From contig NC_089276.1 of assembly GCF_963678975.1 (NCBI RefSeq), forward strand, positions 24,907,059 to 24,971,058: a stretch of 64,000 bases of DNA, in the 5' to 3' direction. The stretch is from Dysidea avara (lineage: Eukaryota; Porifera; Demospongiae; Dictyoceratida; Dysideidae). The notes beneath the pieces were generated by a model that did no database searches, was not told where the DNA came from, and saw only the letters and a program-made list of their open reading frames with translations. A program made the position numbers and the translations under genes. Shown one piece after another: positions 19,131-60,776 of the stretch (within the stretch, counting starts at the first letter, position 1; the number at the start of each line of letters is the position of its first letter).

Positions 19131-22094
<2,964 letters not shown>

Positions 22095-24219: not shown

Positions 24220-25100
24220 CTATGTTTCCAGTATTATTATTATTGGGGGTACAGGTAAGAAGACAATGCCTGTAAAACATAATCAAACTACTACAAAAAT
24301 AATTAAAATCTATCAAGGTGTACATGTGTCTTAAACAAATTTTCTTTTACATTGAAGTCGATCACTCCGGGGTCAAAACTACTCGCCCGCCCCATTCGTA
24401 TTGTACCAGTCCCGTTATAGATACGTCTCACCGTCTTGATCAACAGCTGCAGCACGCAATATAGCACCTCTATTTTGCACTGCAGGCGTAAAACAAAAAT
24501 TATTATCACAAGTGATTATCACCATAAGTGCAAACAAAGTCGAGCAGCAAAGCCAAGTAGTACTATAAAGTCTAGATACTTACACACGTATACATGTACA
24601 AGTAATACCTAGTTTCTCAACTTATCAGACTTCTAGTCAGGCTGTGTGTATCGGGTAAGATAATAGGCGCCTAATTATCACGTGATCATGATACAGTGCA
24701 GTCTGTGGTGCAGTGGTGAGGCTTTTTTTCGCAGTTTCACTGCATGGTAGTGCAAGGAGGTCTCTCTCTCTCTCTCTATCCCTGACAAAACGTGTAACTT
24801 AGCTCTGTACTATGCAGACTGAGTTACTAAGTAGTAATGTAAAAACATGTCAAGTTCAGTTCAACCATCCATGCATGGTGAGCTATCAGGTAGCTATGAA
24901 GTAATAGGGCCACATGTTAACGACCAGTAGCTAGGTACAATAGCAAGTGAAAAGTGTAAACCAAATAGGATACAAACTGATTCGAAGTCCGGCACTACTG
25001 GCCCCGTACTGGGCTCAACTTGATTGGGTGCCATTTCACCTGCTGGCAAGTCAGTTTGAAGATAACTTGACATAATGCAATCCTCAGTGTCATTGTACAT
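24220..25100 (-). CDS. Doubtful small spliced ORF, about 52 residues
   Basis: Three segments on the minus strand (25100-25040, 24479-24432, 24269-24220) carry plausible GT-AG sites and agree in phase. They give a 52-residue product that begins MYNDTEDCIMSSYLQTDLPA, has QNRGAILRAAAVDQDG in the middle, and ends in a hydrophobic PVPPIIIIL stretch before TAG. I recognise no family. Phase agreement of three short segments can arise by chance in 900 bases, so this is only a candidate. Confidence 0.18.
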
Positions 25101-25995: not shown

Positions 25996-27226
25996 TTATA
26001 CTTCATTGATATTTTAGGCTTAATAATGAAAAATAATTGTAAACCTACATGAAATTGTATAGAGAAGAGATTGCTCATTTAGAAAACAAAAGGTTTCTGG
26101 TGTATATCTGTTAGCTAACAATGCTTTTATCAATAAGAGACAAGGCTTAAGTTTGCATAAGTTGGAATGAAACAAAAGTTCCAAATGCTATCTCCTGTTT
26201 CAGGCAGTGTGAGTATCTCTGTGGTGTATGGCAAACTTATTTGCTGTTTATACAGAATGTGCAGTTTATTGAAAATGATAATTATTAGCTGCCATAATTA
26301 TAAAGTACATTATATTATGCACTTTTAAAACCAAATCTATATGTTTAGTTGTCAACACCTTACTAGGAGACATGCAATATCCAAGTTGGTTCTTTGAGTA
26401 AAACTGAATAAAAAAATATTGTATGTACTATTGGAGTATTTTCATGCACACTGAACTACTGTGAAATGTTCTGTGATGCATTTTAAAAATTGCAGTAACT
26501 TGCTAGGAGAGATAATCTATAATTTGACTCATTCATAAAACTAGATAAGCTAGACCATGACAAAATGTAACCTAAACAGCCTGCAAAAACAGTGGGTTGC
26601 AATCGGCTATTCTAATAAAACAACGTGTATATAATGGGGAAAGGTAAAAAGGGAGGAGACTCATGCAAGGGAGAATTTTTAAGTATTGAAACTACCAATC
26701 CAAATATATTTCTGACATAGCTATACATATAGCAATATAGGTCAGTGGAAGTGGAATCTGTAAAGATACATTGTCTCAAGCTCATCTTCCAATTTTTTTG
26801 TCATCACAACCATCTCCTCACTACTTTCTAATTACACACATTTTGTGTGGCTTTGTAAGCATGTTTGGTCTTAGAGTAGTGTTTTGTAATACTTACGTGC
26901 TTTTGTTTTGCTTTGTAACTTAACTTATGGAAGAACAGCTTTTGCTAAGTAGCTTGGGGATCAATCAAATATACACGCATGGTAGCAGGTAAGTTATCCC
27001 AACACACAGATGTACTATGGCAAAAGAATATCCGAGTGGAGGTAAGCATACATCTTTGAAGGTTGATAAAGCTTTTAAAAAGTAAGCACTTAAAAGGGTT
27101 CAATCTCAGCTGACATGGTATTAATAGATTCTCTACATTTTTATCTTAAAGCTGATACCATAATTATTTTTCCCTCTTCTTTATGAATGCTCATCACATT
27201 GTAAAATTATGTACACCACATATACG

Positions 27227-27290
27227 TATGTTAAACTCAGTCCATAGCCATATAGTATTTTAGCTATGAACATCAAAAATACATAACATA
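27227..27290 (-). promoter_or_regulatory. Candidate SECIS element in the PRXL2C 3' UTR (non-canonical core)
   Basis: Read on the minus strand, about 50 bases after the PRXL2C stop. Basal stem UAUGUUA/UAACAUA (7 bp). Internal loop, 8 nt on the 5' side and 3 nt on the 3' side. Core UGA (27275-27273) opposite UGA (27239-27237), giving the tandem G-A/A-G pairs. Helix GUUCAUAGC/GCUAUGGAC (9 bp with one G-U). A 14-nt apical loop starts UAAAAU, placing AA 11 nt after the first UGA. These spacings match eukaryotic SECIS elements. The deviation is U instead of A before the first UGA (canonical AUGA), and the helix is short. Its position downstream of a gene with an in-frame TGA raises its weight. Confidence 0.5.
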
Positions 27291-27338
27291 TATTGATACA
27301 TAATCATTATACAATTAAGTCGTCAAGTCTGCTGTTAG

Positions 27339-30300
27339 CTACTTGAAATCTACAGTTTTAACTCCAGCAGCACCCAGCACAGTATTAATAGGGGAATGGT
27401 TTAAAGATCCATCATCCAAGTGAGCAAAATGTATCACATCACCTGTCAATAAACATGTTTAACTTACATGTAAATCTTAGCTTTCGGTTTTTAAATTTTG
27501 ATAAATATATCACTTAGTGTATAATTGCAAAGGATGGCTATAAGCTGGCTCTCAGCTTGCTGTAACCATTCTTTATCTTTTACAGGCATAACAGGCCTTT
27601 GACATTACAATATTTTCTACACTTTTATAGACCGTATTCCAAACGACATCACACGAATTTTCTATTTGGGGGATTCTTATATTTTCGAGTATTATCACCA
27701 ATGGCGGTTGAGAATTTGAAGATTGATATAGAGGCTATCGAGGCGAAATTACCAAGTTTGGTAAATACAGCAAAGAAAAAATAGTTTTTCTTCTAAACTT
27801 TGAAAACCAGCTGAAAATTTCTAAATTAGTTTTAGGCCAATATCTTCTTCCAGGATTGAATAGCAATTTGAATCAATCTCACTCGAAAATGTTAGAATAT
27901 CCCAAATAGCCACAGCCATTTCATTTCGTGACGTCATTTGGAATACGGTCTATTCAATAATACCATGCTGTAAATCGTCAAAATTTCGACACAGAAAATT
28001 TTCGTGTATTAAAATTTTTATGCAACATTTGTCACTATCACAATCGTCAAAATTTTTTTGAGAATTTTGAGGAATAATATTTGTATGCACAAATTATCAT
28101 CCTTTAATTTTCGTTGATACAGCCAGCAACAAAAAAATTTGACGACAATTTTTTTTCTAAGTATTCATGTAAGCTTCTTACACATCTTTAGCCTTTATGG
28201 CATAATTAGCCTTTACAACTGCCATCTACGGACCAATTTTCAATCTAGTGGCACACAAGTTGATCTCTTTTGTAGTACCTGAATTTGCATTGTTAAGCAT
28301 GCTACTTTATGAGCAATTATCAGATAAGGCATTCACACAACTTTGAACCCTTAGTTATCTGAACCCCAATATGTCTCAGGAAATGGTAAAAGTGTTCAAA
28401 TAAGTGAACTGTTTGGATAACTAATGCCCATACAGTTACAGTATATACAGAGCTCTTTGAAATACTCTAATAGACATACACATGTGTTTAAAATACTCTA
28501 ATAGAACCGAGTTCAAATAAATGAGGGTGTGGATAAGTGAGGGTTGGATAACCGATAGTATACTACTATTTAATTTAAGGTTTATCCTCTGCTTGTATGC
28601 AATGCATCTAGAATCATTCCTGCCATAAAAACACCACATATGCTAATTTGTACACAATTACTGGACTAAATCTTATACTACAGAGAGATGCTTGTCTCTT
28701 ATACTGTAAATAGTGCCAAATACACATCATACAGTTGTTATACCTGGGCCAAGTACAAACTGCCCTCCCTGTTGCTTTATGTCACCCTGTAGCTGCATAC
28801 TCTTCAAAGTTTGAAACGTTGACTTTAATGTGCCTCCAATCATGGAAGATTTTACATGTTCACTTGAATTACCTGTAACATATATGAAAAGAAATAGTAC
28901 CCTTGTACTCTTTAACTAATTAGATGAACACGCTGACTACATACACATATTGTTATTGTACACTGTAATACACTGTAGGCCATTTTGCATGGTGTTGAAT
29001 TGCTTTACCTTCACACATGTACATACAGTAACAGGGGAAAATTGAGTACAGACATATGTGGATATCTAGCACAGTTATAAAAGGCATATTAGGAAAACAT
29101 TATGTGCATGACATTCTGCTTGTTGTACAAGATTGTATGGACAACGACAATGTGATGCCTGACTATACTTAAGATAAATGCTTCAATGAATGTGATGTAA
29201 AAGTACAATACATTAAATATACTCAATGTTGTATGGCACTCATGGTGATGTCTTGAGACTAATACAGCACTTAGTTTTGCCTTGTGCTGTATTAGTATAT
29301 AATTTTATTTACTAGTAAGGGTTACTAACACTTATAATTTTATACACATATGCAGTGCTTCTATTTGTAACTTACTGCTTCCCTTTGAAAGTGTGCAAAT
29401 CATTCCTAGCGTATTGTAGATGGTACATTCAGGATCACAGAATAGCTCTTGCTGGTATGCTATCACGGATGTAAGAATAATATCAAGTCCATTTATCCAG
29501 ATGAAAGATATACAGTGTACATAGAACATGCACAGGGTAAAGAATGCAAGCTTAACAATAAAAATATCAAGAACATGACAGTGCAAGATCATCACCATAT
29601 GTGCACTATATCTACTACACATGCATGAACACACATACAACTACAGGGACACAATATTATGTCATCATAATTACAAAGTAATCACGACTGTCAGCAATGT
29701 TGGGGACAATGTGGTACCTGAAAAGCATCTTCTTTTTTAATGGCCTATAGTAAAGTGAATGCATATTGCTTTGCTGAAGGACTTATTACAGTAGAAACGA
29801 TGAAGAGGTTAGAATTAGTTAGCAATATATTGGAAATTTATTACACACCAATTTCATGAGGCCAACATTAGTATCACTATACCCAGCCCTCAGTGAATAA
29901 ATGTCATTACCATTGTTCTAGCCCAATGTGTGCTAATGCTGACACAACCATAATAATTTAACTATACAGATATCTTGAAGAAAATCTTAATTATTACCCA
30001 GATGCTAAATTAACATCCAGATATCCTGAAAATACAGATATTTGTTGCAATAGACAGTTATCCCAGAACATGGTTGCATGATAAACATTACTAGTCAGTG
30101 TTGTCACAAGTACAAGTCCTCTATAAATACAAGCTTGATAGACTTACGTACATACCTGTTTTCTGCCTAAACCCCTATTGAAAATAAAATTTGTATAATA
30201 AAATGGTCACACACACATAGACAATAAGACATTCAATGTAGTTATCATGTAGTGTATAATGCACAGTAATTGTATGTTAATGCATTGGGAATTATGCTAA

Positions 30301-33300
30301 TCATAGTGTGCCTGGAAAATTATATTGTATAGCAATCTGTACACTAACATCAGCAAACCAATGTGCTCTTGAAAATGCAACATATAATTGCCCATGGGAA
30401 AAACATGGCCGCTCCATATAAATGCCAACTTTATCGAATGTTTGTCCCTGAGCCTTATTGATTGTCATTGAATATGAAAGGTGCAACGGGAATTGGCATC
30501 ATGAAAGCACAAATGGCATATCACAATCTGATGGTGCTAGTTACAGTCTTGGTGTTAGCACTCTGGTATGCTTTGCTTTGCCAGTTAGAACTTCTGCATC
30601 AATGCAATTATCATGCAAATGGCATATGAACATGCATGTCCCATTGCATAAATCTTCACGCAAGTTCAGGTTTTGCAGTAGCATTACATCAGCACCGACC
30701 TTCAGCCTACATGGTGTAAAACTATTTAGAAATTCATCTGGATATTGAGCTCGTTCATCGGCATGATCACATACAATGTCTATAGCTATGGACAGATCAT
30801 AAGTCAAGCATGATTGAGGATTACGTGTTACATTTAACATATGATGAGTCCATTGAACAATGCCTACGTGAGCTAACTTTACTGCTTGCACATAATGGGA
30901 AATGTTCATTTGATTATAATATTCCAATGCCAAATACAACTATAGGCATTGATAACAGTATGGGTAATGTACACAGACATGAACTTACTGCAGAGTTACG
31001 AAGCATGCTTAATCCACAGCAGAGTGCCATTGTCAAATCTGTGATTGATGTGGTTATGTCACCCATTGACATCTAAGTCCAAAGTCTTTTACTTGGATGG
31101 ACCAGGTGGGAGTGGTAAAACTTTCACATACAACTATTTAGTTGCAGAGCTTAGTGGTTATGGGCACACTGTTGCAACAGCAGCATGGACTGGTATCGCT
31201 GCTACACTATTGAATGGAGGTACTGTGCACAGTATGTTCAGTTCCTTTGCTTGATAATAGTTCTTGCAACATTACTCCCACATCAAATTATGCTGCAATG
31301 CTTCGGAATGTGTCACTTTTCATTGTGGATGAGGCATCCATGGTGCCACTACATGCTTTCAATGCAATTGATAGGCTATTGCGTGACATAACAGGAATCG
31401 ACACTTCATTTGGAGGGAAACCATTTTTATGGGGAGACGATTTCTGACAAGTACTTCCAGTAATACGTCATGGACATCCATCTGTAATCATTGAGAACTG
31501 CATTAAACAATCTGTTGAATGGTCATCTGTGACAAAGTTCCAACTTGCTACAAACATGAGAGTTCATCCTGAGGAAGCTGATTTTTTCCAATGGCTACTT
31601 CAACTTGGTAATAATGATTTACCAATCAAGAGTGACCAACCATTTCAAGGATGCATCAGGATACCAGACCAATGTGTAACTGAGTCAGTTGTTACTTCTG
31701 TATTTGGTGACCAGTTTAGCAAGTACACATTTGCTGACCGTGTGATTTTGAGTCCTACTATTTTGAATCACTGCAATTGAATGAAATAATACTCAATCTC
31801 CTTCCAGGTGAATCTAGAACTTATTTCAGTATGGATGAGGATTATAATGGGTCAAGATTATTACAAACATTCTTCTAAGTTGGTATGGCATTTGAAATGA
31901 TGCAGCTTCAGCCATTGCCTTGTGCCACTGCATGTCATCCTTAAGTAGACCTAACATAACGCATGCCTCCTTGAATGTGTCACACTGTATTCCGTCAACT
32001 ATTTGCAGTTCCTCAAAACTCTTGGTCCCAGGAATATGTAGCAATAGCATACATAAATAATATAATTCCCAATCACTTGGATTAATTGCATATATTCAAC
32101 TAATGACTTTGTTGCCTCCTCTCTTTCGCTTCTGCCATTTACGTGTATTAATGTCAAATATTGGTATTTCAGTGTACAGTAGTCCATTTGCACTTTCATC
32201 AGACTCATTTAATTTAAACCACGCTGTTAAATGCATGTCATGATCACATGCATTATGTAGTGCCTGTACTTCCTGTCCTTCACGGAAGTATATTTTCTGC
32301 TCATTAGGTAAATGAATGGCTAAACGCACAATTGTGTGCGATTGATGGTGCATAGGAAACTCAAATAGTCTCCAAGCAGCTTCTGGTGCACTGACATATC
32401 TAGCATCCATGTATCTCATCATGTTCCAGATGTTCACTAAATTCCAACTGGGCACAGTCATGTCCCTTGTAGGTGTACAGGTATTTCACTGATTTTATTG
32501 ACATACACGCCTCCACATTAATGTGTGCAGCATATTTCAGTAGCAGCCAGGGATTGTATGGTACGACCCATCGATTGTCCAACTCAACATCCCTTACCTT
32601 GATGGTTCTACCATTATCTGTGCCGATATCGTGGGTACCCATCCACAGATTCCAATGTCTGTTCACTGTATTCCTTTGGGTAACCCTTAGTACACACTCC
32701 TTCATCCATGCAAATTGAATTAGGTTGCACATGTCCACATGGCCGATGTAACATGCAGGATTTGATGATTGCATGTAACCTTGGGTTGTCATTTACATCA
32801 GGTAATTCTGCTGATATTATTCTATCAATATCATCCCTATTCCATAATTTATTGTCAGGATGAAAGTGTATTAGTAAATGGCAATGTGGCAATCCCCACT
32901 TTTGAAATTTGATTACATGAACTTTAGCAACTACTTTACCCAGGACATGATGCACTGTGATGTCATCAAGTGTAATTCTTTCAATTTCAATTTAAACACC
33001 CTGGCTAACAAATCTGGTCTGTTAAATGGCTGTTCACCATTTGAAAGGTTATCAGTGATTTCGCGCCACTTGGGAATGCATGTGAAAGTCAGAAATAATC
33101 AGGTTTGCCAAACTTCACAATTATAGCCATTGCATCCTAGTAATTCTGTTGAAGTGATCTTGGGCTGCCCTGAAAGGTAGATGGTAGAATCACTATTTTA
33201 CCAGGATGCAAGTTTGACCTACTGTATTGCTTAGTTCATCCATCAGACCTTGATAACGTTCATTTGTTGCTGATTTCTTTGTATGTAATCCAAGCGCTGA

Positions 33301-36300
33301 CTTTCAACCTTCACATATCCACAAAGTACTGTTGGAATAGCTTTCTGCTATGATGTATCACACTAAAACTATCACATATAGCCAATCAATATGTGTAGAA
33401 TTGAAGCGTTGTAACATGATTGCACTTAGATGTGGAATATTCATGAATGTGTTGTAAATCACAATGCCAACCCACCATGTGGAAACAGAAGGGATATATC
33501 ATTGGATCGCAATTGGCACTCATGTAGGATATTTGTTGTAAAGGGCAGTCTCTAGGGTAGACAACATCACGATGAATTGGTGGTACACCATCATCACCAA
33601 CAAATATCATGGCTACTTCATCATGGTGTGGTACATTGTACCTTTGCCGGTCATTGCCAGTTCTAAAATGCAGTTGTATTGATGGAATCCTACATTCCCC
33701 CATTCTATTATCCTTTGTCACTTCATATTTCTCTATGTCAGCCATGTGCCTATATGCCTTTATATATGGACTGCATACTTCCATTACTTGTTGAATTGAC
33801 CTCATCACGACATGACTGATTTGCGGTCTGCATCATTCAATGGTTTAGGGCAGTGTTGGTCTCAATTATATAAAGTTGACTAAATACAGACACTTCCCCA
33901 TCAGGTACCACTTCGATGAAAAATTTGGCCACATATTCGAAAGCATGGTGGTCCATGTCCGGGTGGTATTGCTAGAGTAGTTCCCATGGAAGCAAAGGCA
34001 AACGCACTGTTGTACTGCCTTATGTTCTTCTGAAAGTTCAATGCTTGTGTGGAATTACCAACCATAAGTTGTATCAGTTCATCTGGATAGTGACTTAAAG
34101 GGTCTAATTTCACCTTACCATTGTGGCAACATTTAAAAACTTCATTAGTGAAACTTATGGATGCACAATGATCACATTTCCTGACCATCATACCCCCTAA
34201 ATCAGAAGGTGGCTCCACTTTTCTTCCCATTTGATTTGTACTGTAATTAGCTGTTCCTTAACAGAATGTTGAATATTGTTGGTGTTATTGTATGATACTG
34301 TATGGGATCGTAGTTTCATACTGTGTAGATTATTATGTAAATTCATAGTCTGCACATCAGTTTGCAAATGACTGTCCATGGGAGGTGTAACTTCAGTGGA
34401 ATAGGGATTGAAAATGTATACCAGATATGTTACCAATCATCAATGGTGGTGAATTGAAGGTAGGAGTACCATCCCACACAGCGTAATAATTGTATTGAAT
34501 TGATGCTCCCTAGTACATAATTCAGATGTAATATGAATGTCAATGCCAATCATTACAGCTGTGGCCTTAATGAACAATTCTGTCGTCCACAGGGGAGAGA
34601 AACGTCTACAATAAGTGTCTCCAGAAAGTTGTGGACGAATGTGTCTTCCTCAGGTAGTTAAGGTGGTTTAAAGGGTATTTCCCGTAGTTAACGAATTGCT
34701 ACCAATCCTGGATCAAAAGATTTGTCTCGAATTCTAGAATTGAATGGTACCAATCCGATTGGAATCCGACCAAGAATGACGACAGATCAGCGCTCGAAAA
34801 ACACGTGCGTGGGCAAAGTGAATTAATACATAGATAGTAACAAAACAGTCAGGGGCAGCCAGGGAGAAATGACCTGCAAGAGATATTTTCTGTGCAAGAA
34901 TCTTGCAAGACTTGCAGGTTGCAGTTGCATCGTTTGCAAAAATCATAATCTTGCAAGGAAAGGGACATTTATGTGCAAGAATCTTGCTTGCAATACTTGC
35001 AAGCCTTGCACATAATTTCTCCCTACACCTATTGCTGCTTCCATAGTATTTAGGAGTCGTCAACCAAATTAGCACTCTTTTTAAGAAATCAAATTTGCCA
35101 AAAATAATACTGTCCATCTGCATCCGTGAAACATAAGATTAAATTTGTCATGGCCTAAGCCATCAGGTATGTTAGTCCCGATACAATCAGTACTAGCATC
35201 ACAATTGTAATGAACATCAATGAACCTTAATATAGTTAGGTTTATAGATACTAATAGATAAAAAGTACACATGGAGATGATAAATACATGCTATTGATAA
35301 CATACAGTACACATAAAGAAATGTATAAACATGCATATGATCCCTTACAGTTATAAATTTGTGAGGAGCACATCCAATGACAATCAACCTGACACCAGCT
35401 TCCTAAAACAAAGCAAAATAATTCCTGCTTATGTGGTACTTGATGAATCTACTATATAGTACTTCTAATTCACTGCTCTATGAGCAGATTAATATACCAA
35501 CTACAAAATAGTGAACAATAATGCCACCATCTATGCCAGAATTCTATTGTGTTTAGCAGTTTTGTATATTATTGTATTTAATTGTGTTTCACAGCTTTGT
35601 AGACTCTTGCATAGAAGATCAAATATACTGTAGGAGTCTAGCTAGTTAAATAATCAGTCAATTAAGCAATACTGAATTACTGATTGCAAGCAGTGGAAAC
35701 TTCTATTAAATTTTTTTTGCTTGTACTAGTATTTGACCAAGATACACTGTAGTGTGTGCTCACTATACTGTACTAGTATGTTATTAACAAGAACAACAAC
35801 ACAGTTTTACACATGCACCTTACTTTTATAAAATGAGACAATTTTGCTATGGAAATACACTGTGCCCTCACCTTCAGTAGTCCGTTCACAAAATTTGAAC
35901 ATAATTTCTCCAGGTATTCCTGTACATGTATACAGGTGTGGTGTATGAGTCTTCAAAAAACCAGATATAATTATATCTTTGTTTTATTTCTTCCTCATCT
36001 TTTTTTATCCCATTGTCTTGAATTGGCACACACAAGGGAGGTTTTAAAGCACATCTTGGTACCAAATTTGGTTTTAATATGATAAACATGCAGTTGTGAA
36101 ATTAATAATTATTCACACACACAAAAATGAAATGTTAAAATTGGTACGTTGATAGGTTAATCACTGAACCTCACACCTTTTGTGGTAGAATTATAAAGAA
36201 GCATGAGTAGCTAGTGCTCAATCATGATTTGTAAAACCAGTACTGGAAAATGGGTAAAATGGTTGTGTGGATACCCTGTTCATCGTAACTTCAAAAAAAT

Positions 36301-39300
36301 TTGGTTGCAAATGAATGGGAGTAACAGCTACAGAGTTACAATGCAAAACCCTAATGTGTGTAATAGCACATAATTGAGATAATCTAATAGAACAGTCATC
36401 CTCCATCCAACAAATAATAGCAACACAATAAGTTGTTTCTCTTCTCTCCCTCTATTCCTTGACTGTTATTTAGATTAAAATTATGTCAACACATTTAAAC
36501 TCAACATGGTCACAAAAATTTAATGTAAAACAGTTGCAAACTAGCTTGAAGTTGAGAGCACAGACATACCTTGAAATATGAATCAGGAACCTTAACCAGA
36601 TCTAAATAAAGGTGAAGGACACAATTATATATCAACTAGGATATACAGTAAGTCATGCAGCAATGACAAACCACTTTATTACATGGCATGTGTGTACATT
36701 AGCAGAGAACATGGTCATTCATCTATGTAATCTGTGCAATAAATGGTTTATCAGAAGGCAATATCAGAAGCCACATGCATAAAGTAGAACCGGTAAACAT
36801 TGGAAAGGCAAGTGAAAATATATAGCTTCTTCTTTCAGGAATCTAAATCCTCCAATGCATGCCCTACACCTTTTGTTTACATTACATATGTCTCAATATA
36901 GATATGGGTTAATACCCGGAAGCTTAAAAGCATGAAAGTTTGGTGAGCAATACTTTACATTTTATTAGCCAATTTTTTTCATTAAGTTAAGCTTGATCGA
37001 AATGTTGACTCGCCAAACTCTGCTCTTACCAAACTTTCATTGTTTATGGTTTACCTCGGATGTATTCCTGACATATGTATCAGAGGAAATGCTAAAAAAA
37101 AATCAAACATACAAGTAACATGTGATGTAATGGACCTGTTACAGTTAAATTCAGCTGGTGACGGGTACTGATGAAAGCCGGAATGGAACGGAATGGAATC
37201 AATCGGGGTGTGTGCCAAGCTTAAAATAGTTTGAAACAGATTGTGCACTGTTTCCAACTGTCACACAATTGTGCTAGAATTAGTTTGTTTCTGTTTTTAG
37301 GCTTGCTAGTAATCGTTCCTCAAAAATTCTATTAAATGCCCACCACGTGGCAAGGTGTGTGTAAACAAAATCCATCCAGTTTAGGATGTAGAAGTACTTC
37401 CTTACCATTCCGAAAGGTAAACTACTATAGTATTTTTATGTTGTAGTGGTATTCAAGCCTTTTTAGTACAAGTGTCGCTGGTTTTCTGAGGCGACTATAA
37501 TTCTACCATTATTGGCAGCGGTTTATGAGAGTTAGTAAACTGCAGTATGTTATATTAACAGTGCATGCTTACAAAAATAGGTTAACAGCTTAGCTAAATG
37601 ATCGCTGTTCAGCTTAGACGATTGTACAACGCATTCTTGCAGTGGGCATTAAATAGAGCCATCGAGCAAATGACTTCCAGCATGTCTATAGCAGAAGCAA
37701 ACTAATTCTACTAGTTATTGTGTGAAAGTTGGAAACAGTGCATAATCTGTTTAAAACGATTTTTTAACTTGGCGCGCGCCCCCTATTGGTTTAATTCTGT
37801 TCCCATTCTGGCTTTCATCAGTACCCGCTGGTGACAAGGACTAAAACACTTGACCAATCCTGGCTTATAATTATAAGGGTCACATACAGAAATCAAGTAG
37901 ATCTACTATAATTTGTATAGGTAATCACACACATTTGAGTGCAATTAGGGAATAATTGTACGAGTAACAGTTATTCCATAATTGTACGAAAATGCGTGTG
38001 ATTGCCTACTAATCAAATAGTGACCACCCTTCGTGGTTTGTAGTACACATCTATCCAGTTCTATGTGGCCATTAACTTCAACCAGGTGGTTGCATCATCC
38101 TTCTTTGTATTACATCATTTGTTGTTACACTTAAAAGGCTTCTATTGTCAGCTTCTTTGATTGGCTATTTATTATATCACTTTCTTGTTGCACTTAAAAG
38201 GCTTCTGTTATTCTGCTATTTTATTGGCTACTTTACAGTACAATTACAGAAACAAGGCCATGTGATTTGGAATTAATTGCACTCCTACTATTGAGACTAA
38301 TGTATGGCAAATTAAATCACCATGTGACTAGATTAGAGGTGTGCGATTATCTAGATATATCCAATTATCGAGATGAGGATGACAGGTTTATTTATCTAGA
38401 TAAATGGTAAACTTCCATAAATTACTTGTATACCAAAGAATATCTGATGGTGTAGACACCTCCTATGGGGCTCCAACTCTCCTACCACTTGGAAACATTG
38501 TTAAAACTAACATTTTTCACCTTTTGTACTCTTCAAATTGCAATGTGCTCACTTTACTGGTTAAAATATTGACAGTTAACTACAACAAATAATTGTTTCA
38601 ATTATCAAGATATGTTAGATAATCGAGATAAGTTTAAAAGAAATATCAAGATATGTCTAAATTTGTCATCGCACACCTCTAGATTAGATGCGAAGATATA
38701 ATTCTTCATGCAAACTTTAATGCGCCTATCAATTGTAACCCCCAGTATGGGATCCATAGGGGGATTATACGGGGGTTCACCTACAAAGTTACCTCCAGTA
38801 GTGGGGTTTTTGACACAAGCATTTTTTATAACAATCAAATTGTGTAGCTATATTTAGTTAAATCACGTGACGTTGACCCGTAGCCAAACCTTAACGTGTA
38901 TTGTCTGCAGGCATGGAGTGGGGGAATACCTCGGGGAATGTAGGGGGTAGGTAGGGGATTAGACAAACACTTAGGCCCCAGTATAGTGTAGTCTCGCGTG
39001 GCCAGACCGCTTTTTTCCGTGTATTGGGTGGGGAAAAAGGGCAACTCCAATAGCTGTTTACTTCTGAGCCATCCCCAGATACTGGGGACGCTAATTGGAT
39101 AACATTGGCCGCAAAGGAGGCACCGATGACGTCAGTAAGTAAACTCGGGATCTGTTTATCTTTTAAACGAATCTTAATTTGCTCCGATGTCTCTTTTATA
39201 GCGTCTTGAGAGTTCATCCTCATCCTGTAACAAGACTCACAACCGGAGCAGGAGTGTATTATAGGAATACTTCATTGTTTTACTGACGTCATGGCACCTC

Positions 39301-39621
39301 CGTGACCAATGTTATTCAATTAGCGTCCCCAGCGTCGGGGGACGGCTAAGAAGTAAACAGCTATTGGAGTTGCACCAGACCCTTTTTTCCCCACCCAATA
39401 CACGGAAAAAAGCGGTCTGGCCACGCGAGACTAAAATAGTAGTTAAAATAGTATTCCAACACACGACGTCATACCCTGATAAAGATAATCATGGCCTTCG
39501 TATCTTGGTAAAGAGATCCAAACTCAATGTTTTCTCCGTTTTCATTGACCACAGTCAATTTATCAGCAGATTTCAGCTTCTCCGCGCTTAGCTGTAGCTT
39601 CGTATCTCCCGGTGTTGCCAT
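27339..39621 (-). CDS. PRXL2C: PRXL2C/AAED1 (SelU3-type) peroxiredoxin-like protein with in-frame TGA, putative selenoprotein
   Basis: Thioredoxin-fold AhpC/TSA-like protein of the PRXL2 (SelU) family, third branch (human AAED1/PRXL2C/C9orf21). Eight exons in phase: 39621-39475, 37091-37055, 36601-36570, 35402-35349, 30174-30156 (19 nt), 29459-29376, 28872-28744, 27442-27339; 202 codons including stop, against 226 residues in human. Exon 1 gives LTVVNENGENIEFGSLY...MIIFIR. Exon 2 gives HFL-TGA-YICQEYIR (human HFLCYICKEYV). Then DLVKVPDSYFK, EAGVRLIVIG, a CDPECTIYNTLGM block (human VDPEREIYKRLGM), QQGGQFVLGPG, and IHFAHLDDGSLNHSPIN to the stop. The TGA is the only in-frame stop and falls exactly on the first Cys of the human C-x-x-C. 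With the downstream SECIS-like hairpin this suggests selenocysteine. A nonsense mutation or assembly error is the alternative. Introns hold a Helitron and several MITEs. It is head-to-head with the SYD-1-like gene. Confidence 0.88.
27627..27953. mobile_element. MITE with terminal inverted repeats in the last PRXL2C intron
   Basis: Ends TAGACCGTATTCCAAA and TTTGGAATACGGTCTA are exact inverse copies; the inner parts (ACGACATCACACGAA against TTTCGTGACGTCA) match less well. About 327 bp, possibly a TA target. Between the arms is a short frame with AVENLKIDIEAIEAKLPSLV, which may be remnant coding sequence. Confidence 0.7.
30300..34440 (-). mobile_element. Degenerate Helitron with an internal inversion
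   Basis: A rolling-circle transposon (RepHel) in the 5.2-kb PRXL2C intron 30175-35348. Minus-strand fragments run in order: Helitron N-terminal zinc-like region (34230-33901, with KCDHC and CCHNGKV), a middle segment (33808-33386), the Rep HUH motif in KWGLPHCHLLIHF (near 32885), then LLLHIPGTKSFEELQIVDG (about 32050). The Pif1-type helicase N-terminal half is on the plus strand (30810-31865): DGPGGSGKTFTYN (Walker A), LFIVDEASMVP (Walker B), then NMRVHPEEADFFQWLL. Its C-terminal half is again on the minus strand (30805-30301): YPDEFLNSFTPCRLKVGADVM and TINKAQGQTFDKVGIYMERP. Stops and frameshifts are frequent (for example TGA at 31445), so it is inactive. Terminal TC/CTRR ends were not located. 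Confidence 0.85.
34861..35034. mobile_element. 174-bp MITE with AGGGAGAAAT/ATTTCTCCCT ends and internal GCAAGA palindromes
   Basis: Perfect 10-base inverted ends enclose repeated self-complementary words such as TGCAAGAATCTTGCA and CTTGCAAG. The whole element can fold on itself in several registers. It lies in the same PRXL2C intron as the Helitron, about 0.4 kb from its end. Confidence 0.65.
37055..37091 (-). other. PRXL2C: Redox-motif exon of PRXL2C with TGA (putative Sec) codon at 37080-37082
   Basis: A 37-nt exon with a poly-T tract and TAG acceptor, and donor CGAG/GTAA. It reads His-Phe-Leu-TGA-Tyr-Ile-Cys-Gln-Glu-Tyr-Ile-Arg plus one base that completes the Asp codon of the next exon. 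Both flanking junctions keep the frame and the surrounding residues match the human protein, so shifting the exon edges cannot avoid the TGA without losing the motif. The resulting active site would be U-x-x-C. Confidence 0.85.
37163..37826. mobile_element. 664-bp TIR element with 9-bp target duplication
   Basis: Flanked by GCTGGTGAC on both sides (37154-37162 and 37827-37835). Ends GGGTACTGATGAAAGCC and its inverse GGCTTTCATCAGTACCC begin inverted repeats of about 100 bp (inner landmark TGCACTGTTTCCAACT). A 9-bp duplication is typical of Mutator-like elements (8 would suggest hAT). No transposase. Lies in PRXL2C intron 1. Confidence 0.8.
37919..38010. repeat. Imperfect palindrome of about 90 bp
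   Basis: GGTAATCACACACATTT at the left is inverted as AAATGCGTGTGATTGCC at the right, with ATTCCATAATTGTACG and its inverse inside. It can form a near-continuous hairpin. Function unknown; probably a small MITE. Confidence 0.55.
38337..38678. mobile_element. hAT-type MITE
   Basis: Ends AGGTGTGCGAT and ATCGCACACCT are inverse copies, flanked by the direct repeat CTAGATTAG (8-9 bp). The end sequence resembles the element at 61189-61629 (GGTGTGCGATA). Inner sequence is rich in ATCTAGATA/ATCGAGATA words. No coding capacity. In PRXL2C intron 1. Confidence 0.75.
38989..39433. mobile_element. 445-bp MITE with TAGTCTCGCGTGGCCAGAC ends
   Basis: Terminal inverted repeats of about 150 bp: TAGTCTCGCGTGGCCAGACC at the left, its inverse GGTCTGGCCACGCGAGACTA at the right. 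The inner arms include CCAATGTTAT and TGACGTCA-type blocks. The loop, about 140 bp, contains a minus-strand frame with NSQDAIKETSEQIKIRLKDK, which looks coding but is unidentified. In PRXL2C intron 1, just downstream of exon 1. Confidence 0.75.
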
Positions 39622-39941: not shown

Positions 39942-42419
39942 ATGTCAGTGGAAATACGCAAGAGAAGGAAGTTGCCTTCTGCTCCAGCAAGAGTACTCAG
40001 CTGGGTAGGTGAGGAAGGTGTAATTATACCAGACAGCACCATCAAACCTGACTTGGATCGATTTGCAAAATTTCCTTCAGCTGTGTTGGCTCAACTGAAA
40101 GCAATTGAAGGAGATAAAAGCATCATTCCTGGACAAAAATTTACAGAAATACCTACAAGTGACGATGATATGTGGCAGCACAGAGCCACAACTAGGAAAG
40201 GCAAAAATATTACAATTGAATTGAAAATGGAAACATTTAGGAGAATAGCAGGAATTAGGGAATTCGCTGATGCAAACAACTCCTATTTAATACGAAAAAT
40301 TGAAATTCGCAAGGTTCCAGGAAAGAGTTTGGGTTTTTATATTCGTCAGGGAGATGGCTGGGACAGGCGTGATGGAATATTCATATCACGTCTTATTTTG
40401 GGAAGCTACATTGAAGCCAATGATTTTCTCAGAGTTGGAGATGAAATTCTGAAAGTAAATGAAGTTGATGTGAGTGATTTCTCATTGAATGATGTAGTTC
40501 TGATGATGCAGATGATAGATAAGCTTGTCCTAACTGTAAAAGTGTTAACCTCTCTTTCACTTGTCCGAAGTCGCTCCATGCGCTTGTCAACTAGAGCCAG
40601 AGCACTTTCTCCCGAGTATTTTGCAGCATCCCCAGTATCTGAAAGTGTCACAGTTTCTCCAACAGCAAAGTATTCCACATCCTCATCAGAGCATCTGTCT
40701 TTTACAGAGCATTCCTCTTTTATGGAACATCCTTCATCTATACCACATCTGTCTTCTACAGGGCACCCGGCACCCCCTGTGGAACATCCCTCCTCTATGG
40801 AACACTGTTCTACAGATGTAATGCCAGAGCAAATTACCACAGAGTTACCTTCTCAGACTGTACAAACAAAAGAAACCATAACTATTGAAGATTCAGTGAG
40901 TAATACTTCAGAACTTTTAAGCATAACGCAAGTACTAGAAGAAGGATATCGATCATTGGATTCAGAAGGTAGCGTAATGGTAGTTGATGTGCACAATACA
41001 AAGGATGACGAAATTGAGAAGTCAGAGGATATTCTACAGATGACTGGACTAGATGCATCGCCAAAGGCAGTTATTGTAAACTTGGACACCAGTAATCCTG
41101 AACTTGACAGGGATCAGGAAGATTCCAATACTGCTGAGGATAAGAGTGAGATGCATGATGCAAGTGGTGGTATTGAACAGTTTACAAGTACATCTGATCA
41201 AAGCATGGATGAAAGTGGCAAGGAGGCAGCAATTGATGAAGTTGACTTTTCATTGTTCAAGAAATCAAAAAAGAAAGTTTCTTCAAACACTGACGACACG
41301 TATTCTGTTGAAAAGTCTCTTTGGCAAAAGCAAGAAGAATCCATGTCACACATCGATCCTATTAGAGATATGGAAGACACTACCACTACCTTTATTGGTA
41401 AAGCAGCTGATGAGTCAAGTCCCCCAAAAATAACAGATTCCAGTAGTTCAGTCACGGTTACTCAAGACGACCCAACTGAAAATGTTTCTTGTGGCACGAC
41501 TGTAATGATCAAAATTAAAACCCTGTTGGACATAAGCAGTTTTGCTCCAAGTAGCTTGTTTTGTTCAGTGTTAATAGACCATCGCAAGAAAGCTTCCACT
41601 AAAGCAAAGTCTACATCATCCACTATTGATTTTGATGAGATATTCTATCTTGACTTGCACCTCGTACCAACTGAATTGGAAATCGCTCTTTGTGAACCGG
41701 GCATGGATGAGCGGATCATAGGTTCTGGCTTTGCTAAGCCACCACCAGGCTGCCAGACTTCTCCAACGCAGTTTAATCTTGAAATCGCATCTATTGGTGT
41801 GCTAACATTAGATATCCAATTGCTATCCCTTGAAGACACTTTCCCCAGATACAACAGAACCATTCAGCTAACAGGGAAGGCATACAATGCTCCATTTGAG
41901 GCTTTGGATAATTCAGAAATACCTGAAATTTTACAAAAATGTGTTGAAGCAATTGAAAAGCATGGTCTTAAGGAAGATGGGCTGTATTTCAAACGAGTGT
42001 CTGAAGAAAGAATTCTTGAAGCTAAAACGCTCATTGAAAGTACTGATAACCTAGAACAAACACTTACCAACACAGAAGTACACGTCATCAGCTGCGTGAT
42101 TCAAGATTTGTTAAAAGCTCTACCCAATCCAGTATTCAGCAATATTAAACCAGAGATGATTGCACACCTTCTTTCAGGTGACCAGTCTAGAGACTCTATT
42201 TGGACTCTTCTGTGGTGTATGAAAGAGAGTGACACTCAGGTTATCATTTTCATGTTGAATCATCTCAGAAATGTGCTCCAATACTGCAATACTAACAAGC
42301 TTGATCTAAACATGTTGTCACAGACTTTTGGACCTCTCCTTTTATTTCCGACGAAAGACTCTTCCATAAAACTTGACTTTACCAAAGTAATTGAACTGCT
42401 TCTACACAAGCAAAGTTAG
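39942..42419 (+). CDS. PDZ-C2-RhoGAP protein of the SYD-1/SYDE type
   Basis: Rho-family GTPase-activating protein with the domain order of SYD-1 of worms and flies, which organises presynaptic sites; vertebrate SYDE1/2 keep C2 and RhoGAP (family knowledge). One open exon of 825 residues from ATG 39942. PDZ at about 115-200: IRKIEIRKVPGKSLGFYIRQ, GIFISRLI, VGDEILKVNEVDVSDFSL. A Ser/His/Pro-rich repeat of E-H-(S/P)-S units at about 245-285, then a long acidic low-complexity linker. A C2-like fold at about 515-630 (TVMIKIKTLLDISSF). RhoGAP at about 640-810, with EDGLYFKRVSEERI holding the likely arginine finger and later LLKALPNPVF and LNMLSQTFGPLLLFP. The arginine-finger loop is KRVSE instead of the usual RVSG. 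The lack of introns over 2.5 kb is unusual here. Its stop is 176 bases from the kinesin stop on the other strand. Confidence 0.85.
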   Translation: MSVEIRKRRKLPSAPARVLSWVGEEGVIIPDSTIKPDLDRFAKFPSAVLAQLKAIEGDKSIIPGQKFTEIPTSDDDMWQHRATTRKGKNITIELKMETFRRIAGIREFADANNSYLIRKIEIRKVPGKSLGFYIRQGDGWDRRDGIFISRLILGSYIEANDFLRVGDEILKVNEVDVSDFSLNDVVLMMQMIDKLVLTVKVLTSLSLVRSRSMRLSTRARALSPEYFAASPVSESVTVSPTAKYSTSSSEHLSFTEHSSFMEHPSSIPHLSSTGHPAPPVEHPSSMEHCSTDVMPEQITTELPSQTVQTKETITIEDSVSNTSELLSITQVLEEGYRSLDSEGSVMVVDVHNTKDDEIEKSEDILQMTGLDASPKAVIVNLDTSNPELDRDQEDSNTAEDKSEMHDASGGIEQFTSTSDQSMDESGKEAAIDEVDFSLFKKSKKKVSSNTDDTYSVEKSLWQKQEESMSHIDPIRDMEDTTTTFIGKAADESSPPKITDSSSSVTVTQDDPTENVSCGTTVMIKIKTLLDISSFAPSSLFCSVLIDHRKKASTKAKSTSSTIDFDEIFYLDLHLVPTELEIALCEPGMDERIIGSGFAKPPPGCQTSPTQFNLEIASIGVLTLDIQLLSLEDTFPRYNRTIQLTGKAYNAPFEALDNSEIPEILQKCVEAIEKHGLKEDGLYFKRVSEERILEAKTLIESTDNLEQTLTNTEVHVISCVIQDLLKALPNPVFSNIKPEMIAHLLSGDQSRDSIWTLLWCMKESDTQVIIFMLNHLRNVLQYCNTNKLDLNMLSQTFGPLLLFPTKDSSIKLDFTKVIELLLHKQS

Positions 42420-42595: not shown

Positions 42596-60776
<18,181 letters not shown>

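Follow-up and report, generated by a model that had tools for sequence, protein, structure and literature searches.

Structure of the PRXL2C locus

The window, as the whole 64-kb stretch of DNA analysed here is called, carries on its minus strand a gene of the PRXL2C type (also SelU2; C9orf21, AAED1 and PRXL2C are taken by us to be one gene), which runs in eight exons from the ATG at 39621 to the TAG at 27339 (Table 1). All seven introns have GT-AG borders, the phases agree across the eight exons, and the joined coding sequence comprises 606 nt, i.e., 201 codons and the TAG stop codon. The sole internal stop is a TGA at codon 53 (37082-37080) in the 37-nt exon 2, which reads CAT TTC CTC TGA TAC ATA TGT CAG GAA TAC ATC CGA G on the minus strand from 37091 to 37055, is preceded by ...ttttttttag and followed by gtaaac..., and continues the frame of exon 1 (39621-39475) into exon 3 (36601-36570). 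An in-frame TGA in exactly this exon, reading HFL-TGA-YIC in phase with its neighbours within an eight-exon model free of any other in-frame stop, had been predicted earlier from the DNA, and both parts of this prediction were confirmed. The least certain exon is the fifth; its inclusion makes the corresponding segment gap-free against the crinoid PRXL2C.

Table 1 Features of the PRXL2C gene and of the region downstream of it (positions in the window)
Feature	Position	Strand	Comment
PRXL2C exon 1	39475..39621	-	ATG at 39621-39619; donor GT, phase 0; aligns with PRXL2C proteins
PRXL2C exon 2, HFL-U-YICQEYIR	37055..37091	-	AG/GT borders; start phase 0, end phase 1; top profile match of the window
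In-frame TGA, taken as selenocysteine 53	37080..37082	-	aligned mostly with Cys in homologues
PRXL2C exon 3	36570..36601	-	AG/GT borders, in phase
PRXL2C exon 4	35349..35402	-	AG/GT borders, in phase
PRXL2C exon 5	29718..29744	-	27 nt; least certain exon; AG/GT borders, in phase
PRXL2C exon 6	29376..29451	-	AG/GT borders, in phase
PRXL2C exon 7	28744..28872	-	AG/GT borders, in phase
PRXL2C exon 8, coding part	27339..27442	-	AG border, in phase; TAG stop 27341-27339
SECIS-type element	27227..27285	-	Rfam SECIS_1 28.8 bits (gathering cut-off 35); passes SECISearch criteria as coded here
Longer hairpin extending SECIS helix I	27205..27310	-	-29.4 kcal/mol, z -3.46

Two of the introns contain remains of mobile elements. 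Three inverted-repeat pairs in intron 1 make up two MITE-like elements, at 38984-39438 (arms 85% and 95% complementary) and at 37223-37763 (91%), the second of which starts about 130 nt from exon 2. Intron 4 harbors remains of a Helitron-like transposon (30301-34257), in which Helitron_like_N and Pif1 2B domains lie on the minus strand but fragments of PIF1 helicase on the plus strand, so that part of the element is inverted. Five of the ten frames scanned in this region gave no Pfam match. Head to head with PRXL2C, a single open frame with PDZ and RhoGAP domains lies at 39942-42419 on the plus strand, the two start codons being 320 bases apart, and a short-chain dehydrogenase exon was found downstream of PRXL2C on the same minus strand (21228-22001). 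A short tandem repeat with a unit near TCAGCTGGTATCCCAACTGG was spotted by eye at 43900-44030 (+).

Family assignment and the residue at the TGA position

The search with the product, in which TGA was read as Cys, gave four matches at E up to 0.001 among 5.8 billion proteins, and all four were named peroxiredoxin-like 2C or AAED1, with identities of 42-50%. The top match was PRXL2C of the crinoid Antedon (E 1.5e-55, 50% identity, 92% covered). The Pfam domain AhpC-TSA_2 (PF13911) was recognized at 6.1e-14 (52.8 bits against a cut-off of 27), and AhpC-TSA was also matched. On these best matches and the domain, the gene is assigned to PRXL2C/AAED1 (SelU2). The family match from end to end, as originally claimed, applies to most of the length, but the C-terminus is about eight residues shorter than in the crinoid, nemertean and bird homologues.

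Two profile searches, of which the best 120 of 462 and the best 120 of 201 proteins were used, provided 180 distinct proteins that were fetched; no non-bilaterian PRXL2C homologue was present among the named rows of these best matches. At 33 of the 40 columns with at least 95% conservation among the 180 fetched homologues (among the matches listed), the gene keeps the conserved residue. With bilaterian PRXL2C/AAED1 it shares the AhpC-TSA_2 domain and the second Cys, three columns after the TGA (150/180 homologues), and it differs from them at the TGA column itself, where 153 of the 180 have Cys, 26 have Asp and one has a gap, all these counts again being those among the matches listed. The TGA had been placed at the redox Cys of the family, which is correct for the great majority of these homologues, but Cys is not universal there. 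A 12-residue profile built from 175 of the 180 homologues scored 13.95 at the TGA exon, and its second-highest score anywhere in the six frames of the window was -0.89. What was found is an in-frame TGA aligned with the Cys of homologues, with the frame open on either side.

By profile, the closest solved structures are those of human prostamide/PGF synthase (PRXL2B), wild type and double mutant, and the HFL-U-YIC segment was aligned to them. The TGA column corresponds to the first of the two Cys residues of this enzyme, both of which are Ser in entry 9usa (title: C44S/C47S), so that U and C of the present product align with C44 and C47 of human PRXL2B (SelU3). PRXL2B belongs to the same superfamily but to another subfamily, and in the single-sequence search it matched only at E 1.1e-06. 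When the Antedon homologue was modelled with AlphaFold2 (mean pLDDT 76), a helix at 70-79 directly followed Cys69; the model's three best PDB matches were chains of the same two prostamide/PGF synthase entries, with peroxiredoxins and further thioredoxin-like proteins ranking next. The alignment with the two Cys residues of prostamide/PGF synthase, together with the helix and the PDB matches of the Antedon model, indicates that the TGA occupies a redox-active position.

The Asp form (HFLDFIT) occurs in PRXL2C of many molluscs: it accounts for 26 of the 180 fetched homologues (rows P0124-P0173), and every Asp row for which a species is named (18) is a mollusc, the other eight having no name. 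Of these 26, 22 lack the second Cys as well; other molluscs, such as Patella and Lottia, have kept Cys at the redox position. A prediction error was rejected as the source of the mollusc Asp, which recurs in 26/180 fetched homologues (among the matches listed). Judging from the residues at these two positions, the enzyme chemistry of the Asp-form proteins should differ.

SECIS-type hairpin downstream of the gene

A SECIS-type hairpin begins 53 nt past the PRXL2C stop codon. It consists of the 5' core UGAU (UGA at 27275-27273), helix II, AA in the apical loop and the 3' core UGAG (27239-27236), and it is the inner part of a 106-nt hairpin that was folded at least as well by only 2 of 200 dinucleotide shuffles. 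The SECIS to be looked for in the 3' UTR according to the original prediction is therefore represented by a hairpin of this type on the expected strand and in the expected place, albeit one weaker than the Rfam cut-off. In a 106-nt tile chosen with the hairpin known, the match to the Rfam SECIS_1 model spans all 64 positions of the model and scores 28.8 bits (E 2.6e-4), which is below the curated gathering threshold of 35. Scanning of the whole window with Rfam at the gathering level gave no match, two scans wider than the tile (1901 nt and 441 nt, E up to 10) did not list SECIS_1, and neither of two decoy tiles (the second and third best sites of our own descriptor) matched the model. Note that SECIS_1 is one description of SECIS, and a match to it is no requirement for the class of eukaryotic selenoprotein genes.

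The SECISearch criteria, as given in the description by Lobanov et al. 2007 (PMC2375036), consist of NTGA, 10-13 nt, AA or CC, 15-39 nt and GA, with energy limits of ≤ -12.6 kcal/mol for the whole structure and ≤ -3.7 kcal/mol for the upper stem. They were coded here with the candidate already known, using ViennaRNA energies, the AA form of the loop only (not CC), a single-hairpin upper stem, at least four pairs in helix I and 16-nt flanks. In this form, one site in the window passed on both strands together, namely, the hairpin at 27285-27227, with -19.8 kcal/mol for the whole and -11.9 kcal/mol for the upper stem. Four sites passed in 100 kb of flanking DNA (both strands), a background of about 0.02 hairpins per kb of strand that do not belong to a selenoprotein; at this rate, a kilobase downstream of a stop codon is expected to hold about 0.02 such sites. 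One of the four had a lower whole energy (-21.5 kcal/mol) and a weaker upper stem (-8.0 kcal/mol); it was set aside, the surrounding open frames looking transposon-like by eye. On one strand of 4 Mb of random sequence, 14 sites passed; the upper stem was at least as stable as that of the hairpin in two of them, and its whole-structure energy was reached by none.

Our own SECIS descriptor, set after the hairpin was known, ranked it at the top among 18 sites, and its score was reached by none of 324 random sites (2 Mb). An earlier scan of our own, limited to [AG]TGA, did not pick up the hairpin at 27285-27227 and had a weak site at 25039 as its sole hit. Unusually, the core UGA is preceded by U: in the account of Jiang et al. 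(PMC3473315), 12 of 21 SECIS from sponge genes have GUGA and nearly all those of other invertebrates have AUGA, and the 2007 SECISearch criteria, as described, permit any base before TGA (PMC2375036). The hairpin was not found as a copy of a repeat in the window or its flanks, where the best other match was 28 nt long (E 0.021).

tRNA-Sec in the genome

The genome (551 Mb, 108 contigs) contains a tRNA-Sec gene at C3:19401770-19401855, matched at 75.8 bits against a cut-off of 47. It was the only one of 23 matches over the cut-off, the other 22 scoring 39-46 bits, and ARAGORN identified it as tRNA-SeC with the anticodon tca (UCA). The same search gave some match in 14 of 14 control genomes and a match over the cut-off in five of them; since matches of some kind occur in every control, only those over the cut-off are telling.

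Probable reading of the TGA as selenocysteine

We consider it very probable that this is a selenoprotein gene whose product is PRXL2C in its Sec form, with a U-x-x-C site. The original prediction of a likely selenoprotein is supported by the intact gene, the TGA at the Cys column, the SECIS-type hairpin and the tRNA-Sec gene. Decoding of UGA as Sec in eukaryotes employs SBP2, eEFSec and tRNA-Sec with the anticodon UCA. The gene would be transcribed with a 3' UTR extending over the hairpin, which would recruit this machinery, and the UGA at codon 53 would be read as selenocysteine. The predicted product would adopt a thioredoxin-like fold in which the active-site helix begins with U-x-x-C; a peroxide or disulfide would be the substrate attacked by its selenol, and the resulting selenenyl intermediate would be resolved by Cys56.

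Another explanation is that the locus is a pseudogene, or that the sequenced individual carries a loss-of-function allele, in which a Cys codon has become a stop, so that the protein ends after 52 residues. TGA is one base away from both TGT and TGC. A decayed gene would nevertheless have to have kept 201 codons without any other stop or frame break and seven introns with GT-AG borders. Elsewhere in the PRXL2C coding sequence, 80 single-base changes could have made a stop, and none of them was taken; a random nonsense change would therefore hit codon 53 in about one of 81 cases, and the single stop lies on the very codon expected for Sec. A pseudogene also leaves the SECIS-type hairpin downstream on the correct strand as a coincidence. 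The intact frame, the place of the TGA and the hairpin thus agree with the earlier opinion that a pseudogene is unlikely, and we regard this explanation as very improbable.

Still less credence is given to splicing by which exon 2 is skipped or replaced and the TGA is never read. Exons 2 and 3 together have 69 nt, and the loss of both would preserve the frame, but it would remove the active site, while the loss of exon 2 alone (37 nt) would break the frame. Replacement would need a substitute exon, and there is none in the 64-kb window: the 12-residue profile found no Cys version of exon 2 there in six frames. No linked copy of PRXL2C was present in 50 kb on each side of the window. An error of sequencing or assembly at the third base of the codon leaves the SECIS-type hairpin unexplained and is just as hard to credit as the splicing alternative.

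Comparison with known SelU proteins and possible origin of the Sec form

A Sec form of the PRXL2C subfamily has been known since 2012, when one Sec member of SelU2 (C9orf21-like) was found in Trichoplax adhaerens, as stated in the SelU account of Jiang et al. 2012 (PMC3473315). The Trichoplax protein belongs to the same subfamily and is likewise a Sec form in an animal; it comes from a different genome and is likened to the present product by its description. The novelty initially seen in a Sec PRXL2C accordingly shrinks to its presence in a second genome, which the gene described here adds. Beyond Trichoplax, no further report of a Sec PRXL2C was recognized in a full-text literature search of limited depth, and sponge, Porifera and Amphimedon do not appear in the main texts of PMC3965025 and PMC4561486.

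Sec forms have been reported for SelU1 and for invertebrate SelU3 in the same account (PMC3473315). SelU1, with Sec in fish and birds, is of the same superfamily and another subfamily. The Aq.AphC.like selenoproteins of sponges also combine a thioredoxin-like domain with Sec, as described (PMC3473315), but they are given there as restricted to sponges and have two or five coding exons, compared to eight in PRXL2C here. Amphimedon is the only sponge in the survey of Jiang et al.; four Sec SelU genes are listed for it, none of them named SelU2 (PMC3473315), which, as far as that list goes, argues against the presence of a Sec SelU2 in all sponges. In the passages of Mariotti et al. 2012 (PMC3316567) that concern SelU, the Sec sequences are placed in SelU1, and this vertebrate study describes no evidence that SelU2 and SelU3 changed early from Sec to Cys.

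It is conceivable, and we put it forward tentatively as a somewhat less than even prospect, that the ancestral animal PRXL2C was a selenoprotein. If the present genome is that of a sponge, Sec would have been kept in two lineages that branched off early, this one and Trichoplax, replaced by Cys in Bilateria, and Cys in turn by Asp in many molluscs. According to the discussion in Lobanov et al. (PMC2375036), a change from Cys to Sec is very rare, since a SECIS must evolve, and this rarity would favor an ancestral Sec. If this were true, one active-site residue would have passed through three chemistries along the animal tree. Now that a second genome shows a TGA together with a SECIS-type hairpin, the hypothesis of an ancestral Sec can be tested across sponges and cnidarians, and the case of PRXL2C helps to date the Sec-to-Cys change in an animal redox family. 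Gene predictors that treat TGA only as a stop would probably truncate or miss such a gene.
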